DNA from: a virus
Reading direction: 5' to 3' (one strand)
IMG/VR virus record: IMGVR_UViG_3300040801_001886
Location: 1 to 27,733 of that record
DNA: 27,733 nucleotides
Shown: piece after piece, positions 17,378-24,153 of the stretch
Layout: each line of letters opens with the position of its first letter
Numbering within the stretch: position 1 is the stretch's first letter
Translations under genes and position numbers: made by a program
The notes under the pieces: generated by a model
Told to the model about the DNA's origin: nothing
What the model saw: only the letters and a program-made list of their open reading frames with translations
The model's database searches: none

Positions 17378-20300
17378 TTGTCCGCGATAATTGCCGATTC
17401 TGGCTTTTGTTGGATTCATCCAAGTGGAACGAGTGGTCTCTCCCTGACCGCCTACCTCCTCTCGGATACGGGCGCCTCCGTCGCCTCCTTTACCCTGTCC
17501 GCCGCGGCCGGATACAGTGGCGCGTATACGGGGACCTTCCCCACCGGAACGGCCGCCGGTCACTACAAGGTCGTCATCCGAAACACCTCCGGCGGCGCGT
17601 ACCAGGGCCAGACCGAGGTCGACTGGATGGGCCAGCAAGACGGCTATCTGGTTTCGAAGGCCCACATCTACGACCTTCTCGTGAAGGGTCTCATCACCGA
17701 CGCCTATCCCATTCTTTCGGGATCGACCACGGTCGAGGTTTTCATCCAGACCTCGACGTCGATCGCGCCGTTCGGATCGACCTACCAGGCCGACGGCCGG
17801 AAGCTCTACCAGACGATGGTCTTCTGGGACTCCTCGACGAACGAATACCACGAGCGGGTCATCGACAACTGGGACTACCAACTGTCGAGCCTCGCCGCGG
17901 TACGGTTCGACGAAGACCCGCGCGGACCCCTTCCGTTCACTCCGGTCTCCGGAGATCGCGCGTACCTCCGAACCGGTGGCGCAGTGATGGGACAGGCCGC
18001 GGACGACTCGATCGACTCGAACGCGATCGCCGCCTCGGCCATCGGCGCGACGCAAATCGCGACGAACGCGATCACCTCGACGAAGATCGCATCCTCCGCG
18101 ATCGGCGCGACCCAGATCGCTGCGAATGCCATCGGCTCCTCCGAACTCGCCTCGACGGCCGTGAGCGAAATCGCCGCGGCCATCTGGGACTACTCGACCG
18201 CGTCCGCCGTCTCCGGCGGTTCGTTCGGGCGGGAGTTCAACGAGAAGATTCTCCGGACCTACGAGGTCGGATCGGTAACCTCCGGATCGAATACCAAAGA
18301 GGTCGAGGTCTCCGGACTGACGGTCACGAACAGCAGGATGTTCGAGGGACAGACCCTCGCGGTCTACGACGCGAGCCAAGGCTACAGCGAAGCCCGAAGG
18401 ATCATCGAGTGTTCCGACCAGGGATCGACGGTCATCCTGGTCGTCGATCGCGCGTTCACCTTCAACCCGACGACGGGCGACATCGCCACGGTCATCCCGG
18501 GAGTATGGGGATACGCGAAGACCGCCGACGGTCTGGACTCCGCGGACCTGTCCTCCGACGTCCGGTCCGCGATGACGACCCAGGGATACACGACGACCCG
18601 CGCGCCCTACCTCGACCTCCTGAACACGAACCTCGACGCCGCGATCTCGGGACTCCCGACCGCCGCCGCGATAGCGGACGCCGTCTGGACCGAGGCCCTC
18701 GCGGACCACTCCTCCGACCCCGGCTCGACGGCCGAAGCCCTGAAGGACGCCTCCCAGGTCACCGCCTCCGTGATCGCCGACGCGGTCTGGGACGAGGCCA
18801 CTTCTGGGCACACTACCGCCGGGACCTTCGGAGAACAGGCCGCCCAGATCGACAGTCGGTTCGACATCAACGAATCGAACCAGGGGTCGATCGTCTCGAA
18901 CCAGGCGATCATCGACGCAAACGTGGACGCGATTCTGGTCGATACGGGAACCACGATCCCGAACCAGATATCCGCCCTGAACGACCCGACCGCCGCCGCG
19001 ATCGCGGATGCAGTCTGGGATGAAGCCCTCGCCGGCCACGCAATCGCCGGCTCGACGGGCGAGGCCCTGACCGACGCCGCCTCCGGTGGAAGCGCGCCCA
19101 GTGCCGCCGACATCGCCGACGCGGTCTGGGACGAAGCGGTATCCGGACATACCGGCGCCGGCTCCTTCGGAGAACTTCTCGACACGAACGTAGATGCTAC
19201 AATCGGGAGCAGAGCGACCCAGACTAGCGTCGACAGTCTGAATGACATTTCAACGGCGGATGTCCAAACCGCGCTAACCTCCCAGGGTTACACGGTCGGA
19301 CGAGCCGGAAACCTTGATAACCTGGACGCCTCCGTCTCCAGCCGCTCTTCTCAATCCTCCGTCGACACGATCGACGGAATCGTCGATTCGATCCTCGTCG
19401 ACACGGGGACCACGATCCCGGGTCTGATCTCGGGTCTGAACGATCCGACCGCCGCGGCAATCGCGGACCAGGTCTGGGACGAAGCTCGCGCCGGCCACGT
19501 CGCCGCGGGCTCGTTCGGTGAATTCATCGACGCCGCGATCTCCTCGCGATCCTCCCACGCCGCCCCCGACCTGTCGAACCTCGACGCGACGATCTCTTCC
19601 CGCGCCTCCCAGACCTCCGTCGATACCGTGGACACGAACGTCGACGCGATCCTCGTCGACACCGGAACGACCATCCCCGGCCTGATCTCGGGACTGAACG
19701 ACCCCTCGGCCGCTGCCATCGCCGACGCCGTCTGGGACGAGGCGATCGCCGATCACCTGGGCGCCGGCTCGACCGGGGAAGCCCTGAACGCCTCCGGCGG
19801 GGGAGCAACGCCCGCCGCGATTGCGGATGCGGTCTGGGACGAAGCGGTCTCCGGTCACACGACCGCGGGTTCCTTCGGCGAACTCCTGGACACGAACGTC
19901 GACGCGACGATCTCCTCGCGATCCTCCCACGCCGCGCCGGACCTGTCGAACCTGGACGTCGCCGTCTCGACGCGCGCCTCCCAGACCTCCCTCGACACGG
20001 TCGACGGAATCGTCGACGACATTCTGGTCGACACCTCGACCACGATCCCCGCCCAGATCGCCGCGCTACCGGCCGCGCCCTCCGCCGCCGACATCGCCGA
20101 CGCCGTCTGGGATGAAGCGGCCGCGGACCATACGACCGCCGGGTCCTTCGGGGACTACCTCGACGCGGAGGTCTCCTCCCGCGCGACCCCGGGGGACATT
20201 CCGACCCCGCCGACCGTGGGCGCGATCGCCGACGCGGTCTGGACCGAAGCCCTCGCGGACCACTCGGGAACCGCGGGATCGACGGCCGAGGCCCTCGACG

Positions 20301-22126
20301 CGGCGGACGCCGTCGCGGATGTGTCTGGGCTCGCGACCTCCGCGGAGATCGCCGCCCTGAACGATCCCTCGGCCGCCGACATCGCCGACGCGGTCTGGGA
20401 CGAACCGAAGGCCGGCCACGTCGCCGCGGGTTCCTTCGGTGAAGAAGTTCAGACCCACGCCCTAAGTTCTGAAGTCGCCGCGCTCAACGACATTTCCTCG
20501 GCGGACGTCCAGGCCGCACTGACGGCCCAGGGGTACACCTCGCCGCGTGCCGCGAATCTGGACAACCTCGACGCCGCGATCTCGACCCGATCGACCTTCG
20601 ACTTCTCCTCCGAACAGGTCCGGATCGACGCGACCTCCGTCGACCTGGTCTGGAACGAGGACACCGCCTCCCACTCGGTCGCCGGAACCTTCGGCGAACT
20701 CCTGGGCGACAACCTGGACACGACCGTCTCCTCCCGGGCGTCCTCCGCGGAGATCGCCGCCCTGGAGAACCTGTCCTCCGCCGACGTCCAGGCCGCCCTG
20801 ACCGCGCAAGGCTACACCGCCGGCCGCGCCTCGGGACTGGACAATCTGGACGCGGCGATCTCGACCCGCTCGACCTTCGACAATTCGACCGACGAAGTCC
20901 TCCTCGCCGCCTCCGAGGCCGGGGAGATCGCCGACGCGGTCTGGGATGAACCCCTCGCCGGCCACCTTGCATCCGGGTCCACGGGGGAAGCACTGGATGG
21001 GGCCGCGGCCCCGACTGCCGGACAGGTGGCCGATGCGGTCTGGGACGAAGCGGTCTCCGGGCACACGGGACCCGGGTCTTTTGGAGCCCTCCTCGACACG
21101 AACATCGACGCGACGATCGGTTCGAGGTCGACGTTCAACCCCGCGACCCAGACGGTCGACGTGGGCGAGATCGCCGGGACCTCGGTCTCCGGACCCGACG
21201 ACCTGAAGGCGGACATCTCGACCCTCGCGACCCTCGCCTCGATCGCGGCCCTGAACGATCTCGACGCGACGGAAGTCGCCGACGCGGTCTGGAACGCGGC
21301 CCAGTCGAGCTACACCGCCGCCGGTTCCACCGGGGAATCCCTCGACGACGCGGCGGCCGCCGGCGCCCCCGACCCCGCCCCGATCGCCGACGCGGTCTGG
21401 GACGAGGCCAGGGCGGCCCACACGACCGCCGGGTCCTTCGGTGAAGCCCTCGACGCTACGATCTCCTCGCGCGCCTCTGGCGCGGCCCTGGCGGCCCTGA
21501 ACGATCTCTCCCAGGCGGACGTCCAGGCGGCCCTCGACGCGCAAGGCTACACGACCGCGCGGGCCGTCCTCCAGGACAACCTCGACGCGGCCGTCTCTTC
21601 CCGGTCGAACTTCGACTCCTCGACGGACCCGGTCCTCCTCGCCGGTTCCGCGGTCGATGCGATCTGGGACGAGGCGATCGCGGACCATCTCACGGTCGGA
21701 TCGGCCGGACGCCGGCTCGCGGATACCGCCCTGTCGTTCGAGATCGCCGCCCTGGAGAACCTGTCCGCCGCGGATGTCCAGGCGGCCCTGACCGCCCAGG
21801 GATACACAGCCGGACGCGCGGCCCTCCTCGACAACCTCGACGCGGCCGTCTCTGGGCTTTCGACCTTCGACCCTGGAGCCCAGGAGGTCATCCTGTCCGC
21901 CGCCTCGCGCGCCGCGGTCGCCGACGACGTCTGGGACGAGGCCGCCTCCGGACACTCGACCGCCGGCTCCTTCGGGGAACGCCTGGAGACCGCGCGGAAG
22001 CATCTCACGAACCGGGCGACGATCTCGGGCGCCGGTCCGTTCACGACGACCATCTTCGAGGACGACGGGACGACCCCGCTCAAAACCTTTACAGTCTCCG
22101 CCGACAAACGCGATCGGAGTCCGTGA
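17378..22126 (+). CDS. Giant repeat protein, probable head or tail fibre, 1582 aa
   Basis: The start is TTG 17378, with GGGGG 5 bases before it; the next in-frame ATG would lose 88 conserved-looking residues. Domains in order: an N-terminal beta domain (1-95, LSLTAYLLSDTGASVASFTL); a second beta section (to about 205); a short repeat of the form 'AIGATQIATNAI' (about 210-260); then 18 copies of a unit centred on IADAVWDEA-x-GHTTAGSFGE, interleaved with TNVDAILVDTGTTIP, ISSRASQTSVD and DVQAALTAQGYT blocks. It ends with a beta cap (TISGAGPFTTTIFEDDGTTP). No enzyme motif was seen. Such repeats occur in long trimeric phage fibres. Its place between coat and connector genes hints at a capsid-attached fibre, but a tail fibre is possible. 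Confidence 0.85.
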   Translation: MSAIIADSGFCWIHPSGTSGLSLTAYLLSDTGASVASFTLSAAAGYSGAYTGTFPTGTAAGHYKVVIRNTSGGAYQGQTEVDWMGQQDGYLVSKAHIYDLLVKGLITDAYPILSGSTTVEVFIQTSTSIAPFGSTYQADGRKLYQTMVFWDSSTNEYHERVIDNWDYQLSSLAAVRFDEDPRGPLPFTPVSGDRAYLRTGGAVMGQAADDSIDSNAIAASAIGATQIATNAITSTKIASSAIGATQIAANAIGSSELASTAVSEIAAAIWDYSTASAVSGGSFGREFNEKILRTYEVGSVTSGSNTKEVEVSGLTVTNSRMFEGQTLAVYDASQGYSEARRIIECSDQGSTVILVVDRAFTFNPTTGDIATVIPGVWGYAKTADGLDSADLSSDVRSAMTTQGYTTTRAPYLDLLNTNLDAAISGLPTAAAIADAVWTEALADHSSDPGSTAEALKDASQVTASVIADAVWDEATSGHTTAGTFGEQAAQIDSRFDINESNQGSIVSNQAIIDANVDAILVDTGTTIPNQISALNDPTAAAIADAVWDEALAGHAIAGSTGEALTDAASGGSAPSAADIADAVWDEAVSGHTGAGSFGELLDTNVDATIGSRATQTSVDSLNDISTADVQTALTSQGYTVGRAGNLDNLDASVSSRSSQSSVDTIDGIVDSILVDTGTTIPGLISGLNDPTAAAIADQVWDEARAGHVAAGSFGEFIDAAISSRSSHAAPDLSNLDATISSRASQTSVDTVDTNVDAILVDTGTTIPGLISGLNDPSAAAIADAVWDEAIADHLGAGSTGEALNASGGGATPAAIADAVWDEAVSGHTTAGSFGELLDTNVDATISSRSSHAAPDLSNLDVAVSTRASQTSLDTVDGIVDDILVDTSTTIPAQIAALPAAPSAADIADAVWDEAAADHTTAGSFGDYLDAEVSSRATPGDIPTPPTVGAIADAVWTEALADHSGTAGSTAEALDAADAVADVSGLATSAEIAALNDPSAADIADAVWDEPKAGHVAAGSFGEEVQTHALSSEVAALNDISSADVQAALTAQGYTSPRAANLDNLDAAISTRSTFDFSSEQVRIDATSVDLVWNEDTASHSVAGTFGELLGDNLDTTVSSRASSAEIAALENLSSADVQAALTAQGYTAGRASGLDNLDAAISTRSTFDNSTDEVLLAASEAGEIADAVWDEPLAGHLASGSTGEALDGAAAPTAGQVADAVWDEAVSGHTGPGSFGALLDTNIDATIGSRSTFNPATQTVDVGEIAGTSVSGPDDLKADISTLATLASIAALNDLDATEVADAVWNAAQSSYTAAGSTGESLDDAAAAGAPDPAPIADAVWDEARAAHTTAGSFGEALDATISSRASGAALAALNDLSQADVQAALDAQGYTTARAVLQDNLDAAVSSRSNFDSSTDPVLLAGSAVDAIWDEAIADHLTVGSAGRRLADTALSFEIAALENLSAADVQAALTAQGYTAGRAALLDNLDAAVSGLSTFDPGAQEVILSAASRAAVADDVWDEAASGHSTAGSFGERLETARKHLTNRATISGAGPFTTTIFEDDGTTPLKTFTVSADKRDRSP
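18179..21990 (+). repeat. Array of 18 degenerate VWDEA repeats in the fibre gene
   Basis: The protein motif (I/V)ADAVWDEA recurs 18 times. Intervals alternate between about 33-45 residues and 80-115 residues, depending on which linker blocks intervene. DNA copies are sometimes nearly identical over about 50 bases, for example 19537-19587 and 19908-19958. This allows recombination between copies and length variation among relatives. Confidence 0.9.
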
Positions 22127-22392
22127 TGCCACTGAACGGAATCTTCCCGGACTGGATGCTCCCCGTTACCACGGGGGACGCGATCTCCCAGGTCGTGAAC
22201 CAGGGGGACCTCGTTCTACAGACCCAGGCGATCGAGGTCGAGGTCTTCCAGACCCCGGTCGACATCGCCCTTCCGGACGACGTCCAGGTCGTTACAATAG
22301 AGACGGCGCCGGAGATCACCGTAGAGACGACTCCGGTCGAGGTCACCTTCTCGCCCGCGAACGACATCGTCGTAGAAAGATGCACTGACTGA
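22126..22392 (+). CDS. Small beta protein, 88 aa
   Basis: ATG 22126 overlaps the fibre stop (TGATG); a GTG one codon earlier is equivalent. After an N-terminal GIFPDWMLPVTTGDAI segment, the rest is repeated short strands with alternating Val/Thr/Glu (QTQAIEVEVFQTPVDIALP, ITVETTPVEVTFSP). The function is unknown; it may be a small virion protein that associates with the fibre. Two downstream genes follow by overlap or short gaps. Confidence 0.7.
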   Translation: MPLNGIFPDWMLPVTTGDAISQVVNQGDLVLQTQAIEVEVFQTPVDIALPDDVQVVTIETAPEITVETTPVEVTFSPANDIVVERCTD

Positions 22393-22742
22393 TGGCAGCC
22401 CCGACCAGTATCACCATCTCCCGGACGAAGGGGGACACCTACGCCGAGGAGTTCACCGTGAAGGACTCCGCCGGCGCCGCCATCGATGTGACCGGGTTCT
22501 CGTTCCTCCTGTCGGTCGACCCGAACCCCGACCCCTCCGACGATACGACGCGACTCTTCCAGATCACGGGAGTCCTCGTCGACGCGGCGAACGGTCGGAT
22601 CTCGTTCGCGCCGTCCGCGCTCCAGGCGGACCAACTCGAACCCGATACCTACTTCTTCGACATCCAGCAAACCGATGGCGCCTCCGCGGTCCGAACGATC
22701 GCAAAAGGCGAATACATCGTTCTGCCTCAGATCACCCAGTAA
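22392..22742 (+). CDS. BppU N-terminal-like beta domain protein, 116 aa
   Basis: The 116-residue product shows the order I associate with phage BppU-N-like domains: ISRTKGDTYAEEFTVKDSAG, then DVTGFSFLLSV, an ANGRISFAP turn, EPDTYFFDIQQTDG and TIAKGEYIVLP. These domains are small beta sandwiches in receptor-binding or virion decoration complexes. TGATG overlaps the previous gene. Next to the giant repeat protein, it may be a fibre-associated or head-surface component. Assignment is by pattern only. Confidence 0.75.
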   Translation: MAAPTSITISRTKGDTYAEEFTVKDSAGAAIDVTGFSFLLSVDPNPDPSDDTTRLFQITGVLVDAANGRISFAPSALQADQLEPDTYFFDIQQTDGASAVRTIAKGEYIVLPQITQ

Positions 22743-22752
22743 AGGAGACACG

Positions 22753-22803
22753 ATGCCGGGTAAGCCCAAGCCACGTCCGAGACCTCGACCCCGGAGGAAG
22801 TGA
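22753..22803 (+). CDS. 16-residue Pro/Arg/Lys peptide
   Basis: The complete reading frame encodes MPGKPKPRPRPRPRRK. AAAGGAG stands at a normal distance (22742-22748) before ATG 22753, and the stop overlaps the next start as TGATG. These two signals support real translation, despite the tiny size. The peptide is alternating Pro and basic residues, similar in style to proline-rich peptides that bind ribosomes or acidic surfaces. It could equally be a leader whose ribosomes feed the next gene, or a packaged DNA-binding peptide. Nothing else identifies it. Confidence 0.65.
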   Translation: MPGKPKPRPRPRPRRK

Positions 22804-23324
22804 TGGCGTTCACCGTAGAAACCGGGACCGGACTCCAGACCGCGAACGCCTACATCACGGTCCAGGAATTCAAGGACTACCACGCCGACCGCGGGAACGA
22901 TCTCGGCGGCGCGTCCTCCGGTGACATCGAGAAGTCCATCGTCAAGGCGAGCGATTACATCGACCGCCGATGGCGCGGGAAGTTCGTAGGCATCCGCCTC
23001 CGTCCGCCGAACACTCAGCGGATGGAATGGCCGAGGACGAATGCGTTCTACCTCGACGGGTCGAACGTCCTGGGCGTCCCGATCGAGATCAAAGAAGCGA
23101 CCGCGGAGTACGCCCTTCGCGCACTGTCCGCCGAACTCGCCCCCGATCCAACCTACGATGATCGGAACCAGCGCGTCCAGTCGAAGACCGAACGCATCGG
23201 TCCGATCTCCGAGTCGACGACCTACGCCGCCGGCGGCGCGACGTTCAAGTTCCGGAAGTACCCCGAAGCGGATGAACTCCTCCGCGAACTCGTTCGCTCC
23301 GGACGGGAGATCCAGCGACTATGA
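22803..23324 (+). CDS. Head-tail connector (adaptor), DnaT-like family
   Basis: The 173-residue product has the opening TANAYITVQEFKDYHADRGN, then DIEKSIVKASDYIDRRWRGK, RMEWPRTNAFYLDG and VPIEIKEATAEYALRAL. This is the signature of phage adaptors that are often annotated 'DnaT-like ssDNA-binding'. They form the ring under the portal in siphoviruses. Overlap with the peptide gene (TGATG) suggests coupled translation. Head completion and tail terminator genes follow. Confidence 0.85.
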   Translation: MAFTVETGTGLQTANAYITVQEFKDYHADRGNDLGGASSGDIEKSIVKASDYIDRRWRGKFVGIRLRPPNTQRMEWPRTNAFYLDGSNVLGVPIEIKEATAEYALRALSAELAPDPTYDDRNQRVQSKTERIGPISESTTYAAGGATFKFRKYPEADELLRELVRSGREIQRL

Positions 23325-23704
23325 CCGCCGGCCGATTCTCTAACGCCCAGGCCCTCGCCCTTCGCCTGATCGCGAAGAACGGCGAAGTCGCGACCCTGAA
23401 GACACGGGTCGATGGGACTCCGTCGGATTCGACGAAGCCCTGGGAACCGGCCACGCCGACGACGACTTCCCAGTCGGTGAACGCCGTCTTCCTGGGCGAC
23501 ACCGAAGCCCGCGGGGAGGGTCTCGTAGAGCGGAAGGTCCAGGAGGTCTGGATCGCCGCGACCGACCCCGGCCTGACCGCCGCCCCCGAGGCCAACGACT
23601 CCCAGATCGTCCGCGCGTCCGGGGAAACTTTCGAGGTCGTTCTGGTCGAGATCATCGCCCCGAACGAGGACATGATCGTCTATAGACTGGAGGTCACCCG
23701 ATGA
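23321..23704 (+). CDS. Probable head-tail stopper / head completion protein
   Basis: The 127-residue product starts at ATG 23321, overlapping the adaptor stop (ATGA). The beta-barrel-like content (VNAVFLGDTEARGEGLVERK, VQEVWIAATDPG, SGETFEVVLVEIIAPNED, MIVYRLEVTR) matches stopper-type proteins of about 110-130 residues. They lie between adaptor and tail terminator genes. Identity rests on gene order and size more than on motifs. Confidence 0.7.
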   Translation: MTAGRFSNAQALALRLIAKNGEVATLKTRVDGTPSDSTKPWEPATPTTTSQSVNAVFLGDTEARGEGLVERKVQEVWIAATDPGLTAAPEANDSQIVRASGETFEVVLVEIIAPNEDMIVYRLEVTR

Positions 23705-24153
23705 CGGCGACCTTCTCAGAAGCCCGCGACCAGATCCTCGGCACGTTCAAAACGGCCTGGGACGCGAACTCCGGCGCCGTGAACGGCGGGGCGGTTCCCT
23801 CCCTTCACTACGAGGGACTGAAGTTCGATCCCCCGAAGGACGCCGCCTGGGCTAGAATTACCATCAGACATTCGACGGCCGGACAGGCAACGCTCGCGGG
23901 AGATCCCTCCTTCGGTCGACGCCGGTTCGAGAAGTTCGGAGTCGTTACCGTCCAGATTTTTCAGCCGCTCAGTTCGGGCGGCGGTCTGGTTCTCGCGGAG
24001 AATCTCGCGCAAGTCGCGAAGGCCGCGTTCGAAGGTAAGGCCACGACGGGGCAGGTCTGGTTCCAGAACGTGGCCATCAACGAAGTAGGGGTCGACGGCC
24101 CCTGGTTTCAGATGAACGTCGTCGCATCTTTCCGCTACGACGAGATCGTCTAA
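23701..24153 (+). CDS. Tail terminator protein
   Basis: The 150-residue product has an N-terminal helix (EARDQILGTFKTAWDANSG), a strand PAAWARITIRH-like section (WARITIRHSTAGQATL), RRRFEKFGVVTVQIFQPL and a final GPWFQMNVVASFRYDE. This is the usual pattern of DUF4128-like tail terminators that cap the tail tube. The ATG overlaps the previous stop (ATGA). It precedes the tail tube gene, as expected. Confidence 0.8.
   Translation: MTATFSEARDQILGTFKTAWDANSGAVNGGAVPSLHYEGLKFDPPKDAAWARITIRHSTAGQATLAGDPSFGRRRFEKFGVVTVQIFQPLSSGGGLVLAENLAQVAKAAFEGKATTGQVWFQNVAINEVGVDGPWFQMNVVASFRYDEIV

Follow-up and report, generated by a model that had tools for sequence, protein, structure and literature searches.

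A 16-codon Lys/Arg-Pro micro-ORF ahead of a phage head-tail adaptor gene, a candidate member of a recurrent class of phage micropeptides

Introduction

Can a frame of only 16 codons, lying between two genes of a tailed-phage late operon, encode a peptide, and if so, what might that peptide do? The question is raised by positions 22753 to 22803 (plus strand) of IMG/VR virus record IMGVR_UViG_3300040801_001886, whose whole analyzed stretch of 27,733 nucleotides (27.7 kb, 64% GC, tailed-phage head and tail gene order) is referred to here as the window. A first-pass annotation, made from the sequence letters, described at this position a Pro/Arg/Lys peptide with its own ribosome-binding site, coupled to the downstream connector gene and too short for routine gene callers; it proposed an antibacterial-like peptide, a stalling leader, or a peptide packaged with DNA.

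The gene upstream of the micro-ORF (22392 to 22742) encodes a 116-amino-acid protein of PHROG 1084, a family of unknown function (E value of 1.5e-16). Downstream lie the connector gene, which encodes the 173-amino-acid head-tail adaptor Ad1 (PHROG 477; 22803 to 23324, ATG at 22803; E value of 3.5e-41), and the genes for head closure protein Hc1 (PHROG 161; 23321 to 23704) and the tail terminator (PHROG 179; 23701 to 24153), all on the plus strand. Elsewhere, the window encodes a 1582-amino-acid protein with many copies of a module like AIADAVWDEAxxGHTxAGSFGExLD (17378 to 22126), continued in the nearest relative and probably a tail fiber or similar structural protein. A GIY-YIG endonuclease (Pfam PF01541; 12775 to 13314), likely a homing endonuclease, is flanked by DUF4055 (portal-like) and Mu F-like genes, and a trypsin-like peptidase (PF13365; 8823 to 9506) is encoded directly upstream of the packaging genes. 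The window also carries the flavin-dependent thymidylate synthase ThyX (PF02511; 5742 to 6674) and, as unusual cargo, an SPFH/Band 7 domain protein (PF01145; 8243 to 8800).

Results

The micro-ORF starts with ATG at 22753 and ends with TGA at 22801 to 22803, and its translation, MPGKPKPRPRPRPRRK, is made up of M, P, G, K, and R only. A Shine-Dalgarno (SD) sequence, AAAGGAG (22741 to 22747, plus strand), is located 5 nt ahead of the ATG and overlaps the TAA stop codon (22740 to 22742) of the PHROG 1084 gene. At the other end, the stop codon overlaps the Ad1 ATG within TGATG (22801 to 22805, plus strand), as expected for translational coupling. The SD sequence of Ad1, GGAGG (22793 to 22797, plus strand), falls within the final codons of the micro-ORF and thereby partly dictates the basic residues at the C terminus of the peptide. 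With SD duplex energies of -8.7 kcal/mol for the micro-ORF and -9.5 kcal/mol for Ad1, both sites are among the better ones in the window. The ribosome-binding site, the coupling, and a length below the reach of gene callers were all described correctly by the first-pass annotation, and these signals suggest that the window copy is probably translated.

Because GC-rich DNA yields many off-frame readings rich in proline and arginine, chance had to be tested. In the window and its relatives (1.46 Mb, both strands), the micro-ORF had the highest Pro+Arg+Lys fraction among 19,614 unique small ORFs of 12 to 45 codons, and it contained the only (P[RK])x4 run present in any frame. When its 45 nt were shuffled by mononucleotide, at least 14 of 15 residues were Pro, Arg, or Lys in none of approximately 318,000 open frames; with codon-position composition kept, this result was obtained in 226 of 400,000 shuffles (about 0.06%). 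The micro-ORF uses a varied set of codons, some of them rare (CCA, CGT, AGA, CCT, and AGG), and is therefore not a simple DNA repeat; its codons are poorly adapted to the phage, with a codon adaptation index (CAI) of 0.40 compared to an expected 0.68 (P = 0.003). Altogether, the micro-ORF frame is not due to chance; its signals, composition, behavior on shuffling, and the class pattern described below indicate that it is real and most likely translated.

We then compared the locus with those of its relatives. The nearest, L001, is collinear with the window and 64% identical in Ad1, 75% in the PHROG 1084 protein, and 75% in the tail protein. It has no micro-ORF: the stop codon of the upstream gene is followed by GAAAGGAACACG and then by the Ad1 ATG. 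When the junctions were compared by eye, the counterpart of the AAAGGAG of the micro-ORF was the site used directly by Ad1 in L001 (GAAAGGAACACG-ATG). The distance from the upstream stop codon to the Ad1 ATG is 60 nt in the window, 12 nt in L001, and 10 nt down to an overlap in others; a PHROG 1084-like gene lies directly ahead of Ad1 in L059, L052, L016/L017, L034, L080, L021, L082, and L084, with gaps from 10 nt to a 4-nt overlap. The micro-ORF is missing in all collinear relatives, at least eight of which join the upstream gene straight to Ad1, and no similar SD-preceded micro-ORF was found anywhere in the 35 relative records scanned. A candidate homologue in L037, 'MPKSKKKPKPKPKSKKWKK', was rejected because it is an acidic repeat read out of frame within a 200-amino-acid ORF. 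Among cultured phages, YuA gp59 and its Sonora counterpart, which are small proteins of the same module, contain no KP/RP run, and no such micro-ORF precedes the Ad1-like gene in ten further phages. In Erythrobacter phage XM05, the only KPPKP-rich short ORF is found within the gene upstream of the Ad1-like gene and lacks a clear SD sequence.

The segment that distinguishes the window from its collinear relatives is the 50 nt between the two ATGs (22753 to 22802, plus strand). The simplest history looks like an insertion of 48 to 50 nt in the window lineage that left the micro-ORF downstream of the start signal ancestrally used by Ad1, with the direction of change resting on the agreement among other relatives, as the DNA is alignable in one relative only. 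The segment could be a lineage-specific insert or a vestige with no present function, e.g., the start and Pro-basic tail left behind by a small gene that was lost. Its absence from all collinear relatives and its unadapted codons fit such an origin, and in L140/L158, a Pro-basic tail is fused in frame to a small PHROG 1514-like protein. However, this explanation requires that an intact start, a strong SD sequence, an exact stop/start overlap, and an uninterrupted strict pattern have all survived by accident, and we consider it unlikely, while ranking it first among the alternatives to a functional micropeptide gene.

IMG/VR was searched with a pattern of GGAG, a spacer of 4 to 9 nt, an ATG, any two codons, and then four [K/R-like]-Pro units, using the same pattern with ATG changed to ATC as a control. 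The pattern SD+ATG+xx([K/R]P)x4 was found at 54 loci, compared to 4 for the ATC control. Strict ([K/R]P) micro-ORFs of 12 to 25 amino acids accounted for 25 of the 54 loci and for none of the 4 control loci, which contain Gln, Asn, or His; examples are MAKRPKPKPRPKPKPRPKGY, MPKKPKPKPRPKC, MAKKPKPKPKPPKPPRPY, and MGNKPKPKPRPKQA. Grouped by their neighbors, in a grouping of our own, the strict members fall into about 13 genomic niches, and many of them overlap or abut the start of the next gene. The window micro-ORF shares the GGAG located 4 to 9 nt ahead of the ATG, the two free residues, and the four [K/R]P units; like the IMG/VR micro-ORFs, it is intergenic, has a strong SD sequence, falls within 12 to 25 amino acids, overlaps the next gene, and lies near packaging, head, or neck genes, as most of them do. 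It differs in being Arg-rich, in lacking the C-terminal GY, PY, or C of many members, and in being missing at the same place in close relatives, which membership in the class does not require. A narrower pattern with Arg fixed gave no match in IMG/VR. Homology of such short repeats is not demonstrable, and the window copy may be convergent with the class. The proposed inspection of relatives for a basic Pro-rich peptide at the same position gave a divided answer: close kin lack the micro-ORF, whereas similar ones are present in many unrelated phages and, in the distant L140/L158 family, just upstream of Ad1.

A C-terminal Tyr (GY or PY) is present in many of the micropeptides, among them those of L115, L117, L120, L112, L118, and L131, and a C-terminal Cys in those of L110, L145, and L151; this shared C-terminal signature may matter for function. 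The 69- to 85-amino-acid MATQPKPKPKPEPEP family, which matched the same pattern, is longer and was set aside from the class. Besides the micropeptides, 14 records thus show a second recurrent family, of 69 to 85 amino acids, which starts with MATQPKPKPKPEPEPPEP and, where shown, ends with an APPVGIGRRP-like tail, giving a charge-alternating Pro rod like the TonB linker.

The class peptides had no PHROG match at a meaningful score. A scan of 398 bacterial genomes, a sample too small for a claim of phage specificity, returned a single match, to a repeat of Gln-Pro. Searches of the literature for such Lys-Pro repeats in phages and for small phage proteins rich in proline, in which journal coverage was incomplete, returned nothing relevant, and the Lys/Arg-Pro micropeptides are apparently an undescribed class. 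A large survey of small phage genes by Fremin et al. (2022), which PMC11323111 cites, may include some of its members. Tiny unannotated phage genes, such as the window micro-ORF, are the subject of a review of phage small proteins, in which proline is not mentioned (PMC11323111).

With regard to genomic placement, our impression is that the class is concentrated near packaging, head, and neck genes. In L140/L158, the peptide follows a major capsid gene (PHROG 283) and is encoded 25 nt upstream of a PHROG 477 Ad1 gene, in a module that also has PHROG 290 tail genes; it is possibly the tail of a 68-amino-acid protein or the product of an internal start with a strong SD sequence. Other members are located beside the terminase gene, between terminase and portal genes, after the portal gene, or before the head closure gene, and in L114/L153, the peptide is out of frame inside a longer ORF. 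The L127 micro-ORF lies in a replication region, beside primase and RusA.

Divergence between related members bears on whether the class is coding. The terminases of L110 and L154 share 74% identity, and both records have the core KKPKPKPRPKC, in which all 6 of 6 codon differences are synonymous, compared to about 21% expected for single changes made at random. The four members of the L118 family show up to 3 synonymous changes and no amino acid changes, with 36 to 48 of the next 60 nt differing in most pairs; the upstream gene and the peptide are retained, but the stop codon marks a break, beyond which the downstream gene has been replaced. Two amino acid changes, both Lys/Arg exchanges, set L142 apart from the other members of its family. 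In L115/L117/L120, the micro-ORF overlaps both neighbors (TAATG or TGATG), even though these are only 38 to 74% identical. The micro-ORF region of these three had no PHROG match; the flanking proteins of the L118 family gave four weak Rhizobium phage matches, and those of the L120 family gave none. Divergence was synonymous only between L110 and L154 and in most of the L118 family; the window copy has no homologue for such a comparison. Together, the L110/L154, L115/L117/L120, and L118 evidence shows that the class codes under purifying selection elsewhere than in the window.

The same data weigh on another possibility, namely that the micro-ORF is a coupling leader that keeps Ad1 translated across the longer gap by stop/start re-initiation and encodes a functionless peptide. 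The TGATG overlap, the Ad1 SD sequence within the micro-ORF, and the many class members likewise positioned against the next start are all consistent with such a role, but it leaves unexplained why the Lys-Pro codons of other members are under purifying selection. In the L118 family, the peptide persists next to a changed downstream gene, which speaks against a leader dedicated to a single gene; furthermore, relatives appear to express Ad1 without the micro-ORF, and a mere leader has no need of the KP/RP pattern. A functionless leader is, in our judgment, likewise improbable.

Proline-rich antibacterial peptides (PrAMPs), such as Bac7, oncocin, and drosocin, are short and cationic, with Pro-Arg-Pro repeats. 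The window peptide is also short, cationic, and Pro/Arg-rich, and its repeats are like the Bac7 and oncocin cores (PMC11484942), in line with the antibacterial resemblance originally proposed; such a peptide would block the ribosome exit tunnel. Some PrAMPs have Arg at one ribosome contact site. The likeness ends with the Pro-Arg-Pro look, however, as the peptide lacks the aromatic or large hydrophobic contact residues, and short PrAMPs (oncocin and Bac7[1-16]) are intolerant of changes at conserved sites (PMC11484942). Nothing points to export, PrAMPs bind in the orientation opposite to the nascent chain, and the gene lies in a late structural operon, when host translation is still required, all of which make this function very unlikely. 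No more credible is a polyproline stalling leader that sets adaptor dosage, also suggested at first: the rare codons and basic residues could slow ribosomes, but EF-P-dependent pauses occur at PPX (PMC4140641), the peptide has no Pro-Pro dipeptide, the arrangement is not conserved in kin, and the L118 family keeps its peptide while the downstream gene is replaced. Least probable of all is an assembly error of one base that conceals a basic extension at the N terminus of Ad1, since the segment, although one base off an in-frame fusion, has no homopolymer longer than four, and Ad1 has its own strong SD sequence and starts at MAF as in L001.

Discussion

The explanation that we favor, albeit with a little less than even confidence, takes the window frame to be a micropeptide gene that is translated and belongs, as a member specific to the window, to a recurrent M-x-x-([K/R]-P)n class of 12 to 25 residues. 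Counted against it are the absence in collinear relatives, the low CAI, the possible convergence, the missing C-terminal Tyr or Cys, the members outside the head/neck module, and the ambiguous frames of L140/L158 and L114/L153. According to this explanation, an insert of about 50 nt would have taken over the ancestral Ad1 start signal, and Ad1 would now be started from the new SD sequence inside the micro-ORF via TGATG coupling.

By analogy with TonB, whose Lys-Pro repeats form polyproline II rods (PMC10771500), the alternating Lys/Arg-Pro sequence would be an extended rod of this kind with a strong positive charge, although the TonB linker is a segment of a periplasm-spanning protein, whereas the window peptide would be a free 16-mer without a signal peptide. 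Made alongside packaging and neck proteins, such a free peptide may take part in assembly, most simply by binding to DNA or to acidic surfaces of proteins. More tentatively, the product could be a cationic polyproline II peptide that serves in trans as an accessory in packaging or in head or neck assembly; the suggestion that the peptide is packaged with DNA is one form of this explanation. It is conceivable, though somewhat doubtful, that free Lys/Arg-Pro micropeptides are widespread trans-acting, DNA- or portal-binding packaging or neck accessories that have arisen repeatedly in unrelated tailed phages, with the window phage having acquired one.

The class is of more interest than the window copy. 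With 12 to 25 codons and low complexity, its members would be passed over by gene callers and by the low-complexity filters of similarity searches, and if our explanation is true, phage late operons hold a recurrent kind of gene that annotation has missed. The marks of selection make the class testable in any cultured phage carrying a member, and if the peptide is needed in packaging or neck assembly, it would be a new cationic component of a well-studied machine.
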